In this document: positions 25,073 to 36,066 of the stretch, piece after piece | How positions within the stretch are numbered: the stretch's first letter is position 1 | How the letters are laid out: every line of letters begins with the position of its first letter | Source of the DNA: Bacillota bacterium | GTDB lineage: Bacteria; Sysuimicrobiota; Sysuimicrobiia; Sysuimicrobiales; Segetimicrobiaceae | Length of the DNA stretch: 36,066 nt | Reading direction: 5' to 3' | Assembly (NCBI GenBank): GCA_021324295.1 | Contig: JAJPJJ010000097.1 | Location: forward strand, 1 to 36,066 | Notes under the pieces: model-generated | The model's database searches: none | Seen by the model: the letters and a program-made list of their open reading frames with translations, nothing else | Told to the model about the DNA's origin: nothing | Position numbers and translations under genes: made by a program

Positions 25073-25846
25073 CTACCGGCGCGTCCCCCCGGGGGCCGGC
25101 CGCGGCGCTCCGCCCTGCCCGGACAACATCGGCCGAGCGTACCGGTGCTCGAAGCCACCCGTATACGCGGGGACGCGGACGTCGCTGCTCGTGACGACGG
25201 CCACCGGAAAGTCGAACGCGCGGAGCTGATCGAGAACGCCCCCCCGCGCCGTCACCGCCGCGCGCAGTGCCTGGGGGTCCCCGATCGCCGCGATCCGGTA
25301 CGGCGGCGCCAGCCGCCGCGTGTTGCACAGGATCGTGGTCCCGACACAGGAGAGGCCGCTCTGCCCCACGAGCCGCTCGTCGTTGACCGCGATCGCCTCC
25401 GCGCCCGCCGCCCACAGCGTGCCGACCACCGCCTGCACATCGGAGTAGTGGATCAGGACGAGGTTGGGATCCTCGCCACCGCGCAGCGGCCGCCGGCTGT
25501 CGGCCATCGTCACGACGATGCCCGGACCGTGCAGGGGCACGAGCCCCGCGCGCGTCCGGGCATCCTCCAGCGACGCGGCGAGCGCTGCCTCGGCCCGGCG
25601 GCCACCGGCGGCACGTTGCTCCTCGGCGGCGATCTCACGGCGGAGGTCTTCGATCCTCTGCCGCAGCGCCGCCTGGCGCCGGTCGGCCATCCGGTAGCGG
25701 TAGGCGATCTCCCCGAGCCGGCCCGACGAGACGTGGAGGCCCCTCTCGATCGAGCGCTCGGTCCGGAACTGGACCGCCAGGACAAACCCGGCGACCACCG
25801 CGACGGCGGTGAGCGCGATCTGCCACGTCCGCGGCGGCATCAGCAT
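25073..25846 (-). CDS. DUF881 family protein
   Basis: The 257-residue protein has one N-terminal membrane helix (WQIALTAVAVVAGFVLAVQF) and a charged coiled coil at about residues 45-95 (ADRRQAALRQRIEDLRREIA). The DUF881 globular domain follows, with GPGIVVTMADSR, LIHYSDVQAVVGTLWAAGAEAIAVNDERL and VGTTILCNTRR. The family is anchored at the membrane and commonly flanks DUF1290 (Sbp); function is not established. It starts at ATG 25846 (a second ATG lies two codons in), ten bases after the kinase stop with no strong Shine-Dalgarno, suggesting coupling to the kinase gene. Confidence 0.9.
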   Translation of the reverse strand: MLMPPRTWQIALTAVAVVAGFVLAVQFRTERSIERGLHVSSGRLGEIAYRYRMADRRQAALRQRIEDLRREIAAEEQRAAGGRRAEAALAASLEDARTRAGLVPLHGPGIVVTMADSRRPLRGGEDPNLVLIHYSDVQAVVGTLWAAGAEAIAVNDERLVGQSGLSCVGTTILCNTRRLAPPYRIAAIGDPQALRAAVTARGGVLDQLRAFDFPVAVVTSSDVRVPAYTGGFEHRYARPMLSGQGGAPRPAPGGTRR

Positions 25847-25856
25847 CGCGGCGGGA

Positions 25857-26849
25857 CTACGCGGCCACGGGCAGGCGCCCGTCTTCGCGGCCGGACGGAG
25901 CGACCCGCAGCACGCCCCACTGGAGGGCCCTCACCCGCGCCAGCGACCGCAGGGGCGTCACGATCTCCACCCGGTGGGAGCCGGGCGCCACGCCGACGAC
26001 CGTCCCCAGGGCCACGAGTTCCCCGCCGCGGCCGGCGAGCCCGACGAGCAGGTGCCGGAGGAGACCCTCGGGGATCTCCGCGAGCATCCGCGCCTGGGGA
26101 ATCCGCCTGCCCGCGTACAGGACCGGGCGGTCGGCCCGGACCGTCCGCAGGTCCAGCACGAAGCGGCGCGCGTCCGCGAAATACTCCGCGAACCGCCGCT
26201 CCCGAAACGCGCGCCGCGCGGCGCGGTCACGCGGCCGGACGCGCGGCGAAGGCGCCAGACGGTGCACGGCGACGCTCCCCGGCAGCCCGGCGAGGATCGG
26301 CTCGACCTCGCCGGCGCGCTGGAGCGCGATCACGTGCCGGGGCTGGATCCGGCGGATCTTGCGTAGCTTGGCGGCCACGGCCGCCGCGCCTTCCACCCAC
26401 CCTGTCGTGTCCACCACGATGATCTGGGCTGACGCAGCCCTGGCCCGGCTCAGCATCCGGGCCGTCCCCTCGACGAGATGGTCGTAGACCGCGGCGGGCG
26501 ACGTATCTCCGACGAAGTAGGCCGCCACGAGCGGGATCTCGCTCATCCGGCGGACCGGGCCGCGGGGCAGACCGAGCCCGACCGTCGCCGGCGGCCCGAG
26601 GTCGGATTGCCCCGTGTCCGCGTCCACCACGGCGGGGCGCAGGCCCGCACGCAGGGCACTGTTCGCCAGGGCGGTCGCGGCGGTCGTCTTGCCGACGTCG
26701 ACGGCCCCCAGCATCACCACGGTCCCCGGGGCATCCAGGACCGCGTCCACCGTCTGTCGCCACCCGGCGTGGTGCCCTCGGCTCGTACCGCCGGTCGCCC
26801 CCTGTCCGTCGCCGCGTGCGCGTCCCGCGGGCTGCGGCGGCTCCTGCAT
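25857..26849 (-). CDS. Clp1/Grc3-family polynucleotide 5'-hydroxyl kinase
   Basis: The 330-residue protein has the Clp1_P nucleotide-binding domain: Walker A GAVDVGKTT (residues 48-56), then VVDADTGQSDLGPPATVGLG. The DxDxGQ(S/P)D signature is diagnostic of the Clp1/Grc3/archaeal Pnk family, which phosphorylates RNA or DNA 5'-hydroxyl ends with ATP. The C-terminal part (GGELVALGTVVGVAP...ALQWGVLRV) matches the beta domain of archaeal Pnk. The family is rare in bacteria, mainly thermophiles and deep lineages. The ATG at 26849 has a GGAG site three bases upstream. The gene continues into DUF881 and DUF1290 on the same strand and is preceded by repeat modules A and B. Confidence 0.85.
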   Translation of the reverse strand: MQEPPQPAGRARGDGQGATGGTSRGHHAGWRQTVDAVLDAPGTVVMLGAVDVGKTTAATALANSALRAGLRPAVVDADTGQSDLGPPATVGLGLPRGPVRRMSEIPLVAAYFVGDTSPAAVYDHLVEGTARMLSRARAASAQIIVVDTTGWVEGAAAVAAKLRKIRRIQPRHVIALQRAGEVEPILAGLPGSVAVHRLAPSPRVRPRDRAARRAFRERRFAEYFADARRFVLDLRTVRADRPVLYAGRRIPQARMLAEIPEGLLRHLLVGLAGRGGELVALGTVVGVAPGSHRVEIVTPLRSLARVRALQWGVLRVAPSGREDGRLPVAA

Positions 26850-26859
26850 GCTCTCCGGG

Positions 26860-26894
26860 GTCTGACGAGGGGCGCAGCGAGACGAACCGGCCGC
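26860..26894 (+). repeat. Dispersed intergenic module B, copy 2
   Basis: Thirty-five bases, GTCTGACGAGGGGCGCAGCG to CGGCCGC, match copy 1 at 30 of 35 positions. The left-hand weaker similarity runs into the start codon region of the kinase gene, so the module covers its 5' untranslated region. Confidence 0.6.
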
Positions 26895-26905
26895 CGGGGT
26901 GCGCC

Positions 26906-27031: not shown

Positions 27032-27682
27032 CTAGCGCGCCGACGCCCGCGCTTCCTTGCCCTCCAGCTTCTTCTTGATCCGCTTGAGCCGGAACACGTC
27101 CTCGCGCGCGCGCTGTTCCAGCACGTCGCGGATATACCGGATCTCGCCACGGATGCGCGGGATCACGACCTGCTCGAGCGCGTTCACGCGGCGCGTCGTC
27201 TTCTTGATCTCCTCCCCGATCTTCCGCAGGGTGATTTCGGTGCTGGCCACGTCCAGCAGGGCCGCGACGACGTCCTCGAAGTGCTCGGCGCTCTCGACCG
27301 TCCGCGCCGTCACCGCGACTGGGTCGTGGCCCCGCGCCAGGATGCTGCGCCGCACCTCGTCCGTGGTGATCGTGGGGATCCGCGTGCCCCAGACGTTCTT
27401 CGTCTCGATGCCGACCGCGAGGCGACGCGGGTCCGCGAGGGCTGCCGCCTCGAGCACCTCCCGCCCCTCGACCGCCTTGGCCAGGCTGAGGAGCGTGTAC
27501 GACTCTTCGGCCGACCGGGTCAGCCGCTCGCGCGCGGCCAGGGCCCGCCGTACGATGTTGAAGAAGTCGGCGACCAGCGCGTCGCGCTTGCGCCGGAGCA
27601 GGTCCACGCCCTGCTGCGCCAGCTTGACCTGGTTCTGGCGCTGCAGGAGATTCATGCGGGTCGGACTGATCGGCTCAGCCAT
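27032..27682 (-). CDS. atpD: V/A-type ATPase subunit D (central stalk)
   Basis: The 216-residue protein is the long alpha-helical rotor shaft. It begins ISPTRMNLLQRQNQVKLAQQG, a family hallmark, and ends in a second long helix (LEQVVIPRIRGEIRYIRDVL) with a basic tail. It couples hydrolysis or synthesis in A3B3 to rotation of the membrane ring. ATG 27682 follows GGGAGCG. As the last gene of the operon it stands 113 bases after atpB, with a GC-rich hairpin in that spacer, which may adjust its dosage. Confidence 0.95.
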   Translation of the reverse strand: MAEPISPTRMNLLQRQNQVKLAQQGVDLLRRKRDALVADFFNIVRRALAARERLTRSAEESYTLLSLAKAVEGREVLEAAALADPRRLAVGIETKNVWGTRIPTITTDEVRRSILARGHDPVAVTARTVESAEHFEDVVAALLDVASTEITLRKIGEEIKKTTRRVNALEQVVIPRIRGEIRYIRDVLEQRAREDVFRLKRIKKKLEGKEARASAR

Positions 27683-27795
27683 GCGCTCGCTCCCGATCCC
27701 TGCCTACGCGATTCTCCTCCACCGCAGGCCCGGCGAGCGGGGCCCCCCGGGGCCCGCGCCCCGCCCGGTACGGCGTCGGCCGACGGGCCGCCCCG

Positions 27796-29223
27796 CTACG
27801 CCGGCGCCTCGCCGGGCCGGTACATCCGCTCCATCTGGTCGCCGAAGTAGTACTTCTCCACGTGGTCGCGACTGATCCGGGTGAGCGTCGCCTTCGGGAA
27901 CATCGAGAGGAGCTTCCAGCCCAGCGTGAGCGACTCCTCGATCGACCGGTCGGCCTGTCCCTGGTTGATGAACTCCTTCTCGAACACATCGGCGAACCGG
28001 AGGTACAGCCGGTCGTTCTCCGTGAGCGCCTCCTCGCCGATGATCGCGACGAGCCGCCGAAGATCCAGGCCCTGCGCGTAGGCCGCGTAGAGCTGGTCCG
28101 CCACCTGCCGGTGATCCTCGCGCGTCCGGCCCTTGCCGATGCCGTTGTTCATCAGGCGCGAGAGGCTCGGCAGCGGGTTGATCGGCGGGTACACCCCCTG
28201 CCGGTGGAGCGCCCGGCTCAGCACGAGCTGCCCCTCGGTGATGTACCCGGTCAGGTCCGCGATGGGGTGCGTGATGTCGTCGTCCGGCATCGTGAGGATC
28301 GGGAACTGCGTGATCGTCCCCCTCTTCCCTTTGATGCGGCCCGCGCGCTCGTAGATGCTGGCGAGGTCGGTGTACATGTACCCGGGATAGCCGCGGCGGC
28401 CCGGGATCTCCTCGCGCGCCGCGCCGATCTCGCGCAGGGCCTCGCAGTAGTTGGTCATATCGGTGAGGATGACGAGCACCTGCGTGTCGAGCTCGTACGC
28501 GAGGTACTCGGCGACGGTGAGCGCCGCCCGCGGCGTCATCAGGCGCTCGATCGTGGGGTCGTCGGCCAAATTCATGAACACCACGCTGCGCGCGAGGGCG
28601 CCGGTCGACTCGAACTCGTGGATGAAGAACGCGGCTTCGCGCGCCGTGATCCCCATCGCGCCGAACACGACGGAGAACTGCTCGGCCTCGCCCAGGACCT
28701 TGGCCTGCCGGGCGATCTGGGCCGCGATCTCGTTGGCCGGGAGCCCGGCGCCGGAGAAGATGGGCAGCTTCTGCCCCCGCACGAGCGTGTTCATCACGTC
28801 GATCGTGGAGATCCCGGTCTGGATGAACTCGGCGGGCTTCTCGCGCGCGACCGGGTTGATCGGGGCGCCGATAATCGGCAGCCGCTTCTCCGGGATGATC
28901 GGCGGCAGCCCGTCGATCGGCTCGCCGAGGCCGTTGAAGCGCCGGCCGATCATGTCCCGGCTCACGCCGATCCGGGCGACATCCTCGCGCAGGCTGATCG
29001 ACGTCCGGGCGAGGTCCATCCCGCGGGTCTCCTCGAACACCTGGATCACCGCGTTGCGGTCCGAGACCTCGATGACCTGGCCTCCCCGCACGCTGCCGTC
29101 CTGCACGTGGATCTCCACGATCGCGCCGTACGAGAGATCGCGCGCCCCCTCCACGAAGAGAAGCGGGCCGGAGATGTAGTTGATGCTGGTGTAGCGCTTG
29201 GTCGCCAGGTTCATCGCGCTCAT
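27796..29223 (-). CDS. atpB: V/A-type ATPase subunit B
   Basis: The 475-residue regulatory/non-catalytic head subunit has the nucleotide-binding fold of its family without a working P-loop: the position reads [13 protein letters not shown]. Other signatures are [31 protein letters not shown] (here VILTDMTNY), and [21 protein letters not shown]. It alternates with subunit A in the head. ATG 29223 is used; a second ATG three codons later is equally placed. It lies 102 bases after atpA. Sequence and length are normal. Confidence 0.96.
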
Positions 29224-29325
29224 CGCCGCGACACCCCCGTCTGGCCCACCCCGCGCCTTCGCCCCGTCTCGGCGAAGGCGTGGGGGCCCCGGGCCTTCCT
29301 CCGGGCCGGTTTCCGGGACATGATC

Positions 29326-31143
29326 CTAGACACCTCCCTGCTCGCCGCCGCGCTGCACCGGCGCCGACGGCGAGGGGGAGGCCGCCGCGCCGCCGCCCGC
29401 CGGCACCGCGCCGAACGCCTCGGGGAGGGAGGCCAGGAACCGCTCCGCGTGAGCCCGGAACTGGTCGTTCGGGATCTCCTTGAACCGGGCGATCTGCTCG
29501 TTCTGCGGCAGGTTGAGGATCTCGTCGATCGGCTTCCCGCGCTCCAGCGCCGCGGTGGCCTCCTCGTAGAAGGCCCGGATGCCGCGGATCATCCAGTAGG
29601 CCTTCTCCAGGCTGCACGACGCGTCGACCGCGCTGAACGCGCTCTGCTGCAGGAAGTATTCGCGGATCATCTTGCCGGCCTCGATCACCATCCGCTCCTG
29701 GTCCTGGAGCGCATCCGGCCCGACGAGCTGGACCACCTCCTGCAGCCCCGCCTCGCGCGCGAGGATCGCGCTCAGCCAGGCGCGCTGGTCGGCGAAGTCC
29801 TCGGCGACGTTCTTCGCGTACCAGGGGGTGAGCAGGCCCTCATAGAGGCTGTAGGACCGGTTCCAGTTGATCGCGGGGAAGTGCCGGCGGTAGGCCAGCT
29901 GCGCGTCGAGCGACCAGAACGTGCCCACGATCCTGAGCGTGCTTTGCGTCACCGGCTCTGAGAGGTCGCCGCCCGGCGGCGACACCGCGCCCACGACCGT
30001 CACGGCGCCGACCCGCTCGTCCTTCCCGAGGACGACCGCGCGGCCGGCCCGCTCGTAGAACGCGGACAGGCGGCTGGCGAGGTACGGCGGGTAGCCCTCC
30101 TCCGCCGGCATCTCCTCCAGCCGCGAGGAGATCTCCCGCAGCGCCTCGGCCCACCGGCTCGTGCTGTCGGCCATGAGCGCGACCCGGTAGCCCATGTCCC
30201 GGAAGTACTCGGCCATCGTGATGCCCGTGTAGATGCTCGCCTCGCGCGCCGCGACCGGCATGTTGGAGGTGTTGGCGACGAGGATCGTGCGCTCCATCAA
30301 GGGGCGGCCGCTCCGCGGATCCTCCAGCTCGGGGAACTCGGTGAGCACGTCCGTCATCTCGTTCCCGCGCTCGCCGCAGCCCACGTAGACGATGATGTCC
30401 GCGTTCGACCACTTGGAGAGCGTCTGTTGCACCACGGTCTTGCCGCTCCCGAACGGCCCCGGCACCGCCGCGGTCCCGCCCATCGCCACCGGAAAGAGGA
30501 CGTCCAGGATCCGCTGGCCCGTGACAAACAGCTCCGTGGGATCCAGCTTGCGCGCGGTCGGGCGCGGCACCCGCACCGGCCACGTCTGCATCATCCTGAG
30601 CTCGGCCCCGTTCTCGAGGCGCGCGACGACGTCGCTCACGGTGAACTCCCCCTGGCGGATCTCCGCGACCCTGCTGGGGGCTGCGTCGGGCGGCACCATG
30701 ACCCGGTGGGCATACGAGTACTCCTGCACCTCCCCGATCACGTCCCCGGGCCCGACCCGGTCCCCGACGCCGACCCGCGGGACGAACTGCCACTTCCGCG
30801 CCCGGTCCAGCGGCGTCACGACCGCCCCCCGGGCCACGAAGTCCCCCTGCATCTCCCGGATCTTGTCGAGCGGCCGCTGGATGCCATCGTAGATGCTGCT
30901 CAGCATGCCGGGCCCGAGCTCGAGCTGCAGCGGCGCATCGGTGGACTCGACCGGCTCGCCGACGTACAGCCCGGACGTGTCCTCGTACACCTGGACGAAC
31001 GCGGTATCGCCATCGAGGCGAATGATCTCGCCGATCAGTTTCTCCTTGCCGACGCGCACGATGTCGTACATGCGTGCACCGGCCAGGCCCTTGGCGATGA
31101 CCGCCGGGCCGGAGATTCGTGTGATCTCGCCTGTGGCTGGCAT
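29326..31143 (-). CDS. atpA: V/A-type ATPase catalytic subunit A
   Basis: The 605-residue catalytic subunit has Walker A GPFGSGKT at residues 229-236, the catalytic-Glu region [11 protein letters not shown], the long non-homologous insert of A subunits (about 110-190) and the [16 protein letters not shown] segment. It binds and hydrolyses or makes ATP at the A/B interface. The C terminus carries an unusual flexible Gly/Ala/Ser/Pro tail. ATG 31143 is chosen for its strong GGGGAGG site; 23 upstream in-frame residues are rejected. It is downstream of atpF by 65 bases. Confidence 0.96.
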
Positions 31144-31208
31144 CCCACCGTCCTCCCCTGGATCCTCCTCCGCTGCCTGCCGGGCGCCGGCCGCGGCGCC
31201 CGCCTGCC

Positions 31209-31526
31209 TCACTTGAGCTTCACGGAGAACCCGATGTGCTCCCGCACGAGCCGCTGGATGTACGCCTCGCCGCTCTCCAGCTTCGCGCGCGCGGGCGGCA
31301 GCGGGACGATCAGCGGCAGATCTCGTCCCCGCAGCAGGCGGGCGCGGGCATCGTCGGTCCCCACGAGCAAGTCTTCATTCACGGCGAGCAGGCCGTACCC
31401 TGCCGCCGTGAACTCGCGAATCCCCTCCAGCGCCTCCTGCGGGGTGCGGGCCTCGCGGACCTCCACGCCGGCGAGGCGGAACCCGGTCGCGGTCTCGCCG
31501 TCCGTGATCACGGCGACCTTATACAA
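31209..31526 (-). CDS. atpF: V/A-type ATPase subunit F
   Basis: The 105-residue protein has the Rossmann-like subunit F fold: [23 protein letters not shown], then [12 protein letters not shown] and LPLIVPLPP, and a C-terminal helix. Subunit F binds subunit D in the central stalk and modulates activity. The start is TTG 31526, overlapping the atpC stop by eight bases with AGGAG seven bases upstream. No ATG or GTG gives the full first strand. Confidence 0.9.
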
Positions 31527-32547
31527 CGACGATCTCCTGGCGCGCGCCGTCCGCGGGGATCCCGAGCTGCTTCGCGTGCGCGACGACGCGGAGGTTGCTG
31601 ACCTCGGCCGCCTTCCGGGTGAGGTACCCGATGACCACGTCGAGGGACAGCGGGTCCCCGAAGAACATCTGCGCAGCCAGCTTCTGAAACGCGCGGTCGA
31701 TCGCCCGCTCCATCTCCAGCAGGCTCTCCTGTCCGGTCAGCTCCGCGCCGAGAGGGCGCATCGCGCCGATCTCGGCCGCGCTCGACTGCGGATCGGCGAG
31801 CGTGGCGAACTGGTCGCGGGAGAAGACGTAGCCGCCAGGGATGAAGAATCGCTCCCGTTCTTCGCGGCTGAGCTCGCGGATGCGGCGAAGCTTGAGCGCC
31901 GTCTTGGCGTTCGTGGCGGTGATCTCGTTCTGCAAGAACCGGCGCAGCGCGGTCTCGCTGTGGCCTTCCCCGTCCGCGATCCCGAGGCCGTACCGCACAT
32001 ACGCGCGGTCGAGGGCGACCTCGATGTCCACGAGGGTCCCGCTCCGCTGCGCGGCCTCCACGCCCTGGCGGAGCGGGAACCCCAGCGGGTGCATCCACGT
32101 CACCAGCGTATCGGCGATCGCCCGCAGGTCCGGCTGCTGCAGGAGCTCGCGCAGCCGCACCTCGCTCAGCAGCCCTCCCGGGTAGAGCGTCGCCAGGATC
32201 TCGTCGTTCGACTTGCCGGTGTGGCGGCCCCGGACGATCGCCCGAATGTTCTGCAGATCGTAGCGGAGCAACACGACCTCGATCAGCCGGCGGGGCTCGC
32301 CGTCGGCAAAGCTGAGGATCCGCCGCGTCGTATGGTAGAAGTTCTGCGCGAGCGCCTCGTCCACGGCCCGCACACCGGCGAACCGGCTGAGCGCCTCCTG
32401 CAGTTCCGGGTTGTAAGGCGTGTCGCCGAGCGCCTGGATGAACGCGTCCACGTCCGGGAGATGCAGCAGTTCCTCCAGACGGGACGCCGGAAGCAGCTGG
32501 GACTTCATCACCTTGATGCGGGCGTTGATGTACGGAAAATCACCCAT
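31519..32547 (-). CDS. atpC: V/A-type ATPase subunit C (d-type, rotor-ring cap)
   Basis: The 342-residue all-helical protein matches the V/A-ATPase C (AC39/d) family, with repeated PYINARIKVMKSQLLP-type helices. Recognisable pieces are YNPELQEALSRF, LLRYDLQNIRAIVRGRHTGK, FLQNEITATNAKTALKLRRI, and GDPLSLDVVIGYLTRKAAEVSNLRVV, here split over the last helices. It sits between the central stalk and the c-ring. It ends TAA inside the atpF start. The start is ATG 32547, 36 bases after atpE. Confidence 0.92.
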   Translation of the reverse strand: MGDFPYINARIKVMKSQLLPASRLEELLHLPDVDAFIQALGDTPYNPELQEALSRFAGVRAVDEALAQNFYHTTRRILSFADGEPRRLIEVVLLRYDLQNIRAIVRGRHTGKSNDEILATLYPGGLLSEVRLRELLQQPDLRAIADTLVTWMHPLGFPLRQGVEAAQRSGTLVDIEVALDRAYVRYGLGIADGEGHSETALRRFLQNEITATNAKTALKLRRIRELSREERERFFIPGGYVFSRDQFATLADPQSSAAEIGAMRPLGAELTGQESLLEMERAIDRAFQKLAAQMFFGDPLSLDVVIGYLTRKAAEVSNLRVVAHAKQLGIPADGARQEIVVV

Positions 32548-32583
32548 CGATCCGAGCCCGTCCCCGCCCGGGCGGGACGCCCT

Positions 32584-33171
32584 TCAGGAGCCCCACAGGA
32601 TCTCCGCCACCCGGGCCACCATCTCGCGCCGCGCCCGCGCGAGCCGGCCGGCGACCGTGTTCTCGACGACCGCCCGCCCGTCCGGGCTGACCAGCCGCAC
32701 GCCGTCGGCAAGCTGCGGCGTCTCGTGAACCTCGGCCTGGAGCCCCAGCTCCAGGCAGGCCTCCCGGACGGCCAGCGCGTCCTGCGGCGAGACCTCCACG
32801 GTGGTGCGCTCGCCCGCGGGTAGATCCGCGGTGGCTTCGCGCAGCAGGCTCCGGAGCGTCGCCCGCCGGCGGCCCGGGTCCCGCAGGACCGAGCGGAGGG
32901 CCTCCTCCGCCTCCTCGAACACGCCGCGGATCGCCTCGTCCTTGGCGGAGAGCAGCAGCGCCGAGGCGCGAAGCTGCGCGGTGCTGGTCGCCCGCGCGCG
33001 GGCCTGGGCGCGCTCGTGCTCCACGCGGGCCCGGGCGGCCGCGAGGATCTCCTCCGCCTCCCGGCGGGCCTGCCCGACGATCTCTTCGGCCCGCGCCCGC
33101 GCCTCGGCCAGGATGCGCTCGCTCTCGGCCCGCGCCTCCTTCTCCAGCATCTCGAGCAGCTCGGATCCCAT
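32584..33171 (-). CDS. atpE: V/A-type ATPase subunit E (peripheral stalk)
   Basis: The 195-residue protein has a long N-terminal coiled coil (ESERILAEARARAEEIVGQA) and a globular C-terminal domain that caps the stator and contacts subunit B. The C-terminal VSPDGRAVVENTVAGRLARA segment is typical. It pairs with subunit H(G) to form the peripheral stalk. ATG 33171 follows GGTGGAG. It lies 22 bases after the proteolipid gene. Confidence 0.92.
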   Translation of the reverse strand: MGSELLEMLEKEARAESERILAEARARAEEIVGQARREAEEILAAARARVEHERAQARARATSTAQLRASALLLSAKDEAIRGVFEEAEEALRSVLRDPGRRRATLRSLLREATADLPAGERTTVEVSPQDALAVREACLELGLQAEVHETPQLADGVRLVSPDGRAVVENTVAGRLARARREMVARVAEILWGS

Positions 33172-33193
33172 GCGGCAGCCGCTCCACCCGCAG

Positions 33194-33517
33194 CTAGATC
33201 TTCCCGTACAGGAAGAACGCGATGACGAATCCGAAGATCACGAGCGTCTCAGGGATGACGAGGAAGATCAGCATCGTGCCGAACATCTCGGGACGCTCGG
33301 CGACGACGCCCGCCGCCGCGCCCCCGATCCGGGACTGCGCGATGCCTGTCCCGATGGCGCCGAGCCCGATCGCGACCGAGGCGCCGAGGCCCATCAGGCC
33401 GGCGCCGACGCCGGGGCCGGCCGGCGCGCCGGGCGCCTGCGCCCAGGCGGCCAGGCCGCCCAGCACCACGAAGCCCGCGGTCAGGGTGACTATCCTCACG
33501 ATGGTGCGCATCGTCAC
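33194..33517 (-). CDS. atpK: V/A-type ATPase proteolipid subunit K (c-ring)
   Basis: The 107-residue protein has an N-terminal hydrophobic segment (VRIVTLTAGFVVLGGLAAWAQ), probably a leader or extra helix, and then the two-helix c-type hairpin. Helix 1 contains GLGAIGTGIAQSRIGG with Gln61. Helix 2 contains LVIPETLVIFGFVIAFFL with the ion-carrying Glu90. The Gln plus Glu-Thr combination resembles sodium-binding c-rings, but the usual Tyr four residues after Thr is Phe here, so the coupling ion is open. GTG 33517 overlaps the atpI stop as GTGA and has GGAGG at good spacing. ATG 33511 is an alternative. Confidence 0.9.
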   Translation of the reverse strand: MTMRTIVRIVTLTAGFVVLGGLAAWAQAPGAPAGPGVGAGLMGLGASVAIGLGAIGTGIAQSRIGGAAAGVVAERPEMFGTMLIFLVIPETLVIFGFVIAFFLYGKI

Positions 33518-35475
33518 GCGTGTCCACCTCCCGTGCGTTGGAATGGCCGATACGGGTGTCCGGTATCCTCGTAGTACTTGAACTTGGAGAAGAACTCGAC
33601 CCAGTGGAGTCGCGCGGGCTGCAGGATGTGCCCGATGATCGTCAGGCCGAAGAACATGACGTGCGCGACCGCCCCCACGAGCACCCCGAGCACGAGCACG
33701 GAGAAGCCGCCGCCGATCGTGTCCGCGACTACCGCCAGGGCCAGGGAGGCCATGCCCACCGCGAAGATTCGCGCATACGAGATGATGTTGCCGAAAGTCG
33801 AGATGCTCTCCATCACCCACAGCACGCTGCCCAGCGTGAACGAGAGGATCAGCGAGAGCAGGAACACGACGGCCGCGGCCAGGATCACCGGGCTGAAGAG
33901 CGCCGACGGCAGGACCTTGACCTGCGTGGCGATCCACAGGAACACCGTCGTCGCGCCCGCCAGGAGCGCGACGGACTCGAGGACCTCCTTGCGCTCCCGG
34001 TGCCGGGCTGCCTTCACCATCTGGAGGATCAGCCCGAGATAGACCTGGGCCAACCCGAAGCCGATCGAGAGGTAGAGGTACGTCGTCACGCTCTCCAGCC
34101 GGTTGAACAACGGGTGGAACCCCGGGATGAGGCGCTCGGGCAGGTCGCCGAAGAACTCGCCGAAGACGATCCCGAAGAGAAACGTCCACGCCGTCATCCA
34201 CCCCAGCACCGCAGCGGACTGGCGGATCACCGTGGGGGTGAGGGTAAATCCGAAGTCGATCCCGCCCAGCACGACCCGCCACGGCCGGCCGGGCGTCGCC
34301 TTGCTCCGCAGCCAGAGGGTGAGCGCGAGGAGGAACAGGCCGTACCCCACATCGCCGATGATGATGCCGACCCACAGCGGCATCCCGATCGCAAAGTAGA
34401 TCGTCGGGTCGAACGTCCCGTACTTCGGTGGATCGAAGATCCGGAGGAAGAGCTCGAACGGCCTGAGCCACGCGGGGTTCTGGAGGAGCACGGGGACGTG
34501 CTCGGCGTGGTGCACCGGCGCGGGCTCGTCGTAGACCAGGACCTCGCCGCCGAACCGCTGCCGCAGGCCGGCGCGCACGGACGGCACCTGCCGGGTCGGC
34601 ACCCACCCATGGAGGACGAACGCGTACCGGGATTGCGGCAGGTGGGCCATCAGCTCGAAGCGGTGCGCCGCGTCGCGCGCCGCCGTCGCGATCGCGACGA
34701 TCTCGGCGCGATGCCGTTGGCTCAGCTCCATCAACTGCCGGCGCAGCGCCTCGATCTCCCCCGGCAGGGAGCGGGCGCGCTCCTGCAGGTGCGCCACGGC
34801 CTGCGCGAGCGGCTGCCCGGACACGCGCGCCGGCAGCCGCAGCTCGCTCGCCCCGGCCCGGGCGAGCACCGCGCGGACGGCATCCGCATCCTGCCGGGCA
34901 AAGGCCACCACCGCGCCGGTGTGACGCTCGTCCAGCGGACGGCTGACCAGCTCCACGCGCCCGCGCGTCGCCTGGACCAGCTCGGCCCGTAGCGCGTCGA
35001 GCGCGCCGGGGGACCGGGCCTCCAGGACGAAGCCGATCGCCTCGAGAAGCCGGCTGCGCTCCAGCGGCTCCAGGAGGGGCGCCAGCACTTGGATCGCCCG
35101 CCCGTAGGCGCGCAGGATCTCCTGTTCGTCCTCCGCGTCGAGCAGCCGGCGCGTCAGGTCCTGGACCTCGCGCTCGATCGGCTGGAGCCGGTCCTGCAGC
35201 GCGTCGGGGAGATCCTCCACGTACGGCCCGGTGGGCATAGGCGGCGTCTCGAGGGGCGGCAGGAGCGTGAGGATCGACTCCGCGCGCGTGCGGACCGCAT
35301 CGATCGCCACGCGCTGCGTCTCGAGCTGATCGGGCAGCGGCTGCGGCCCGATGCCCTCCTCGGTGGCGCGGACGTGGTCGACGTGCAGGACCCCGAGGTC
35401 CTGCACCGCGCGCACCGCGTCCGCCTGCAAGCGCCGGGGGCCGAGCACCGTCACCCGGCTCATGGGGACGATCAT
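33514..35475 (-). CDS. atpI: V/A-type ATPase subunit I (membrane stator)
   Basis: The 653-residue protein has a soluble N-terminal half with coiled coils (SLPGEIEALRRQLMELSQRH) and a C-terminal half of about seven or eight membrane helices. Family signatures are YFAIGMPLWVGIIIGDVGYG, NPAWLRPFELFLRIFDPP and ISYARIFAVGMASLAL. It holds the peripheral stalks and forms the ion half-channels against the c-ring. The ATG at 35475 overlaps the atpH stop as ATGA; a second ATG lies four codons later. Translational coupling with both neighbours is likely. Confidence 0.94.
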   Translation of the reverse strand: MIVPMSRVTVLGPRRLQADAVRAVQDLGVLHVDHVRATEEGIGPQPLPDQLETQRVAIDAVRTRAESILTLLPPLETPPMPTGPYVEDLPDALQDRLQPIEREVQDLTRRLLDAEDEQEILRAYGRAIQVLAPLLEPLERSRLLEAIGFVLEARSPGALDALRAELVQATRGRVELVSRPLDERHTGAVVAFARQDADAVRAVLARAGASELRLPARVSGQPLAQAVAHLQERARSLPGEIEALRRQLMELSQRHRAEIVAIATAARDAAHRFELMAHLPQSRYAFVLHGWVPTRQVPSVRAGLRQRFGGEVLVYDEPAPVHHAEHVPVLLQNPAWLRPFELFLRIFDPPKYGTFDPTIYFAIGMPLWVGIIIGDVGYGLFLLALTLWLRSKATPGRPWRVVLGGIDFGFTLTPTVIRQSAAVLGWMTAWTFLFGIVFGEFFGDLPERLIPGFHPLFNRLESVTTYLYLSIGFGLAQVYLGLILQMVKAARHRERKEVLESVALLAGATTVFLWIATQVKVLPSALFSPVILAAAVVFLLSLILSFTLGSVLWVMESISTFGNIISYARIFAVGMASLALAVVADTIGGGFSVLVLGVLVGAVAHVMFFGLTIIGHILQPARLHWVEFFSKFKYYEDTGHPYRPFQRTGGGHA

Positions 35476-35819
35476 GCGGAGCTCCCGAGCACCTCGCGCA
35501 CGACAAGATCGACGGCACGGGGCCGGCGCTCGTCGCCCCGCTTGCGGAGCGCGTCCGCTTCGGCTTGCGCGCGGGACAGGATCTGCCGCGTGACGGCGGC
35601 GGCCTCCCGCTCGCTCTCGGCGGCGGCCGCGGCCGCCTGTTCCCGGGCCTGCTCCCTGGCGCGAGCGCGGAGCTCCTCCGCCTCTCGCCGCGCGCGCTCG
35701 ATGATGCGATCCGCCTCCGCGCGCGCCTCCGCGACGGTGCGCTGCAGCTCCTGTTCTCGCTGGGCGATCTCGCGGAGAAGCCGCTCGTCGGCGTGCGCGT
35801 CGGGGGCGTGCTGGGCCAT
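35472..35819 (-). CDS. atpH: V/A-type ATPase subunit H/G (peripheral stalk)
   Basis: The 115-residue protein is almost entirely a charged coiled coil (EAEELRARAREQAREQ, then ESEREAAAVTRQILSR), as expected of the stalk partner of subunit E. It is the first gene of the operon, matching the Thermus order G-I-L-E-C-F-A-B-D. ATG 35819 follows AAGGAGCG. The frame is open upstream to 35915 through the attenuator; those 32 residues have no ribosome site and are rejected. The leader before it contains a terminator hairpin (see separate entries), implying regulated read-through. Confidence 0.88.
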   Translation of the reverse strand: MAQHAPDAHADERLLREIAQREQELQRTVAEARAEADRIIERARREAEELRARAREQAREQAAAAAAESEREAAAVTRQILSRAQAEADALRKRGDERRPRAVDLVVREVLGSSA

Positions 35820-35835
35820 CAGCGCTCCTTGGGAC

Positions 35836-35890
35836 AAAAAAATAGCGTCCGTGGACCGAGGCTTTCTCGTTCGCACGAGGCCCGCGGACG
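35836..35890 (-). terminator. Intrinsic terminator (attenuator) in the ATPase leader
   Basis: On the minus strand a 12-bp stem (arms 35890-35879 and 35857-35846, one mismatch and one G-U) encloses a smaller hairpin with a GCGA tetraloop. It is followed two bases later by seven U residues (35842-35836). This is a textbook Rho-independent terminator, located downstream of the promoter and 17 bases before the atpH start codon. Confidence 0.75.
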
Positions 35891-35900
35891 TGGTCGTCCG
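35885..35900 (-). promoter_or_regulatory. Candidate antiterminator hairpin
   Basis: CGGACG (35900-35895) can pair with CGTCCG (35890-35885) across a four-base loop. The same CGTCCG forms the first half of the terminator stem, whose second half is again CGGACG. The two structures are mutually exclusive. Confidence 0.5.
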
Positions 35901-35913
35901 TTCCGCGAGCCTC

Positions 35914-35943
35914 ATGGTAACAAACGACGCAAACGACTGTCAA
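35914..35943 (-). promoter_or_regulatory. Promoter of the V/A-ATPase operon
   Basis: On the minus strand, a perfect TTGACA (35943-35938), 18 bp and TACCAT (35919-35914) precede the attenuator. The spacer is an almost perfect 9-bp tandem repeat (GTCGTTTGC, GTCGTTTGT), which could be an operator. The predicted start near 35907 gives a leader of about 88 bases. Confidence 0.65.
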
Positions 35944-36066
35944 GGGCGGCGGCCGCGCTGCAGCGGCTTCGGAACTTGACCAGGGCGGACGCGCCTCGGA
36001 GCCACGTTTCCTGCGGTTTGCGGGCCCTCGGGCGCTTCTGGGGGCGGGCCAGCTATCTGTCAGGAC
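35944..36066. other. Right-edge sequence, nothing recognised
   Basis: The final 123 bases lie upstream of the ATPase promoter. No coding frame with support and no RNA fold is seen. A gene could begin or end beyond the edge. Confidence 0.4.

Follow-up and report, generated by a model that had tools for sequence, protein, structure and literature searches.

In enterococci and clostridia, V-type ATPase genes are reported to carry Na+-I (DUF1646) riboswitches (PMC9337991), so RNA-leader control of V-type ATPase operons is not new in kind, and the statement in an earlier note on the present locus that no attenuator had been described for V/A-ATPase operons is outdated. Attenuators built on an intrinsic terminator in the 5' leader consist of a promoter, a short leader, a hairpin with a U-run and the start codon of an operon with a biosynthetic or energy role (PMC2965389). 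The leader upstream of atpH described here shares this arrangement, but no conserved antiterminator, leader peptide or aptamer was found in it. It resembles the Na+-I riboswitches in its predicted RNA-leader control of a comparable operon type, and differs from them in lacking an Rfam match (E up to 1), in belonging to another phylum and in being far shorter. We consider it fairly probable that a leader terminator (attenuator) lies between the promoter and the atpH start codon; its hairpin probably limits the frequency with which the operon is transcribed. No description of this atp leader was found in the open-access literature.

The window, that is, the whole stretch of 36,066 nucleotides that was analysed, belongs to a 129-contig assembly of the family Ca. 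Segetimicrobiaceae (f1), uncultivated bacteria from soil; it is the family of Candidatus Segetimicrobium genomatis in the phylum Ca. Sysuimicrobiota (NCBI listing; PMC11604079). All nine genes of the proposed V/A-ATPase operon are confirmed by Pfam, in the order G/H, I, K, E, C, F, A, B, D (Table 1). Directly downstream of the operon and on the same strand (25073-26900) are genes for a CLP1_P-domain protein (polynucleotide-kinase-like) and a DUF881 protein. The c-type subunit (33194-33493) has a Q in its first helix region (GTGIAQSRIG) and E-T in its second (PETLVIFG), which may resemble residues of Na+-binding c-subunits.

Table 1. Features of the atp locus, with positions in the window.
Feature	Position	Strand	Basis
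atpH, V-ATPase G/H-type subunit, first operon gene	35472..35819	minus	Pfam PF16999, E 2.2e-10
V/A-ATPase genes I, K, E, C, F, A, B, D	27032..35470	minus	Pfam
Sigma70-type promoter TTGACA-N18-TACCAT	35914..35943	minus	pattern search; present in 9/9 family leaders
Segment 1 CGGACG, part of alternative 5' hairpin	35895..35900	minus	not kept in relatives
5' arm of terminator-like hairpin, CGTCCGCGGGCC (segment 2)	35879..35890	minus	near-invariant in family
3' arm of terminator-like hairpin, GGTCCACGGACG (segment 3)	35846..35857	minus	sequence and folding
U7 tract, then G	35836..35842	minus	U6-8 in 9/9 family leaders

The promoter claimed for atpH is borne out by position: the -35 hexamer TTGACA occupies 35943-35938 and the -10 hexamer TACCAT 35919-35914 (minus strand), separated by an 18-nt spacer. 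Four promoter-like sites including this one were found in 20 kb, compared with 0.9 in shuffled sequence; a strict promoter pattern search returned zero matches. A 9-bp tandem repeat in the promoter spacer, previously offered as a second control point, is absent from relatives and looks incidental on sequence comparison. The distance from the -10 to U7 is 71 nt, including the hairpin. On the 3' side of T7 there is a G, followed by AAGGAG and then the atpH ATG (35819-35817); the gap between U7 and the ATG is 16 bases by position, one fewer than the 17 counted earlier.

The hairpin spans 35890-35846 (minus strand). Hairpin and U7 are present as described in the earlier note, with two corrections: the supposed 12-bp stem has 11 pairs over its 12 positions (one C-A mismatch and one G-U), and it is separated from U7 by 3 nt, the CTA directly 5' of T7. 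A G+C-rich hairpin and U-run are located in the 5' leader downstream of the promoter, as in an attenuator. Counting both strands of the window (71% GC), this T7 is the sole run of at least six T or A, and the 4.02-Mb genome contains just four copies of TTTTTTTG.

Matches to atpH were obtained in 8 of 12 family genomes, with a ninth leader on a truncated contig of G011, and the nine readable leaders span four genera. A TTGACA hexamer, a TAnnAT -10, the hairpin and U6-8 followed by G are present in all nine, with the U-run located 14-22 nt before the atpH start codon. AtpH identity within the family is only 43-61%, yet the promoter, hairpin and U6-8 are retained. The pattern named beforehand as counting against attenuation, a hairpin kept in relatives without the promoter, was not seen, both elements being kept in every family leader. 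When the terminator pairs of the window are placed on the family alignment, 87.8% of cells pair (vs 33-44% for slid controls), and the segment 2:3 duplex energy across the nine genomes is better than in all 2000 shuffles. No doubly changed pairs were found in the family alignment, because the 5' arm hardly varies. In G004, both arms are altered and a different stem is formed beside its U6. Pairwise identity of the 5' arm CGTCCGCGGGCC (35879-35890) is 0.88, compared with 0.71 for segment 3 and 0.46-0.49 for neighbouring sequence. Judged from the alignment, the conservation of this arm exceeds the need of a plain terminator.

Elsewhere in the order, a stem and then U3-4 follow the promoter in all nine f6 leaders. 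The f2 sequence differs (AACCCAGGA...TCCTGGGTTTTG), with U3-4 in five of nine genomes and three loci without a hairpin; three pairs of the f2 stem are changed on both sides, and 7 of 500 shuffles attain as high a covariation score. In f3, represented by one leader, the stem is accompanied by U6, and f4 leaders have a hairpin and no U-run.

The earlier note had described three segments, CGGACG (35900-35895), CGTCCG (35890-35885) and CGGACG (35851-35846, all minus strand), of which the second could pair with either of the others. These segments are present in the window genome, where both structures are predicted to be stable; conservation of the 1:2 pairing is not supported. If the RNA starts right after the -10, the 5' arm of this genome is predicted to pair upstream almost completely, in a competing 5' hairpin larger than that described earlier; when the first six bases are omitted, the predicted values are 0.66 for upstream pairing and 0.25 for terminator pairing. 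Segment 1:2 pairing is predicted in two of the nine leaders (the window genome and G002), and the upstream pairing probability is at most 0.24 in the other seven. Summed over nine genomes, the 1:2 duplex energy is no better than that of shuffled segment 1 (12% of shuffles are as good). Segment 1:3 also beats all shuffles, a result driven by four mutually related genomes of genus g2. In these, the partner of segment 1 is segment 3 and a stem near the U-run remains, so this pairing would not block termination. As a result, the three-segment layout is lineage-specific and the putative terminator is the conserved part, and a conserved RNA switch is unlikely. A conserved terminator with an unconserved competing arm illustrates the limit of inferring a switch from one sequence. 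For the broader proposal that the operon is switched by premature termination, the terminator-like hairpin and U-run stand, and a conserved antiterminator is not supported.

We were unable to find an Rfam match in 35000-36066 at E up to 1 (Na+-I included), or in the window or related leaders at gathering score, and a known riboswitch was rejected on this basis. Only approximately 23 nt of leader are located 5' of the terminator arm, which is too little for a known aptamer or leader peptide. The only in-frame ATG (35915) overlaps the -10; ribosome-mediated (leader-peptide) attenuation was rejected, as there is no room for a leader ORF before the terminator.

As a proxy for termination by a hairpin with U7G, TTTTTTTG sites were inspected in several family genomes, and some of these sites are preceded by clear hairpins. 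Three cobalamin riboswitch platforms (RF00174; L101, L103 and L138, with riboswitch scores of 59-103 bits) end in a hairpin and TTTTTTTG shortly before the start codon, with 0-1 nt between stem and U-run. This layout nearly matches the one upstream of atpH, a point in favour of termination there, although the platforms have a full upstream aptamer where the atp leader has its short 5' segment. Among all TTTTTTTG contexts of G000, G002, G005, G006 and G009, no second copy of the atp leader was found outside atpH. At two other genes, secE (five genomes) and secD (six genomes), the leaders conserve TTTTTTTGTTTG at a distance of 18-23 nt from the -10, on its 3' side, and have no usable hairpin (secE-nusG-rplK, L037 near 16302; secD, L091 near 1501; in relatives, L096, L113, L126, L131, L133, L139, L142, L150 and L152). 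Apart from such sites, runs of T7 are very scarce in these genomes. The lack of a hairpin at these sites makes a non-termination role possible, and by its contexts U7G serves at least one other purpose in the family.

In the attenuator that we propose, RNA polymerase would start near 35907 and a transcript of approximately 60-70 nt would fold into the hairpin at the U7 run; a fraction of polymerases would stop at U7, and the remainder would read into atpH. In the window genome and G002, read-through may be promoted by the alternative 5' hairpin, although not as a conserved switch. The conservation of promoter, hairpin and U-run and the occurrence of this layout at riboswitches of the family are observed; termination at U7, its efficiency and regulated read-through are inferred. 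Points against termination are the 3-nt gap between stem and U7, the lack of doubly changed pairs within the family, the hairpin-free secE and secD sites, the f4 hairpin with no U-run and the three f2 loci that lack a hairpin. Control, if any, is more likely to be exerted by a general factor than through a ligand-binding aptamer; candidates are transcription rate, Nus factors or a protein that binds the RNA at its near-invariant 5' arm. If the leader does terminate transcription, V/A-ATPase synthesis in this uncultivated phylum would gain a control point after transcription start, and the operon would have a form of RNA-leader control distinct from the Na+-I riboswitch. An extension of this model, improbable in our estimation, is a leader attenuator found across Sysuimicrobiales that acts via the near-invariant 5' arm (as a protein-binding site or by pairing with a second partner), is unrelated to known riboswitches and, through premature termination, links ATPase synthesis to energy or growth state.

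Other explanations of the hairpin and U-run were considered. U7G could serve translation, as an unstructured U-rich site preceding the Shine-Dalgarno sequence, or early transcription, with the hairpin protecting or spacing the mRNA 5' end and causing little or no termination. The hairpin-free TTTTTTTGTTTG of the secE and secD leaders and the distance of U7 from the atpH start codon in the family (14-22 nt) are in keeping with this idea. However, no atp leader has more than a few nt between hairpin and U-run; the U-run of f2, f6 and f3 leaders comes after the hairpin, far from the start codon; and riboswitch platforms end with an identical layout. We regard such a leader element as unlikely. 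It is distinctly improbable that the hairpin mainly terminates the upstream nuo operon from a site just downstream of the atp promoter, with attenuation of atp as a side effect: the hairpin is downstream of the promoter in every leader, such that atp transcripts must cross it, and some f2 loci are preceded by nuoN and have no hairpin. The hairpin is also intact in the window genome, where a putative mobile element is immediately upstream (an insertion that may be recent). What speaks for a nuo terminator is that nuoN is the upstream gene, on the same strand, in family relatives and most members of the order, that the interval from nuoN to the promoter is without a T-run in the sequences examined, and that two f2 genomes in which the upstream gene is not nuoN (G033 and G040) have a degraded U-run.

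A true three-segment switch, in which segment 2 would pair with segment 1 for read-through and with segment 3 for termination under control of an ion, nucleotide or protein, seems to us very unlikely. Both structures are stable in the window genome, and the greater conservation of segment 2 than of segment 3 (0.88 vs 0.71) is as expected of a sequence with a second partner. Against this, seven of the nine leaders lack a predicted 1:2 pairing, the energy of this pairing is no better than that of shuffled sequence, and the approximately 23 nt on the 5' side leave too little space for any known aptamer; no Rfam match was found. A leader terminator remains our preferred reading of the atp leader.

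The DNA immediately upstream of the atp promoter is repeated in the genome. The repeat (35961-36066) is identical over 97-107 bp at six contig ends (the window and contigs C27, C31, C35, C59 and C62 of G000, the latter five being L002-L006). In all six copies, the distance from the end of the repeat to a -35 hexamer is exactly 17 bp, and the 17-bp spacers differ. At offset 17, the promoter scores of the copies sum to 58 of 72; the next offset reaches 34, and the highest value among 2000 shuffles is 35. TnGBS and ISLre2 elements, and some of the ISKra4 group, target sites 15-17 bp upstream of sigmaA promoters (PMC3942029). The copies found here share this fixed placement upstream of the -35; unlike in those systems, a transposase was not found in the assembly, and the host phylum is not one that we found listed for them. 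Together, the 17-bp offset and the described insertion habit make it most likely that the repeat is the end of a promoter-targeting mobile element behaving like TnGBS, ISLre2 and ISKra4. We found no report of a promoter-targeting element in the host phylum. A Mutator-type DDE transposase was not found in the assembly, whose contigs break inside the element; a search for ISLre2 gave no match in the assembly and none in control genomes either, and a search for ISKra4 gave one weak match, below the cut-off and on an unrelated contig. When NuoN was used to search the genome for the far side of the element, the best match was a different nuo cluster. A weak match to the repeat in G009 falls in a coding region and was dismissed as chance. 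The genes downstream of the six copies are atpH, secE-nusG-rplK, a gene whose product reads as ribosomal protein S2, and three others. The placement of the repeat independently supports TTGACA at 35943 as part of a working promoter.
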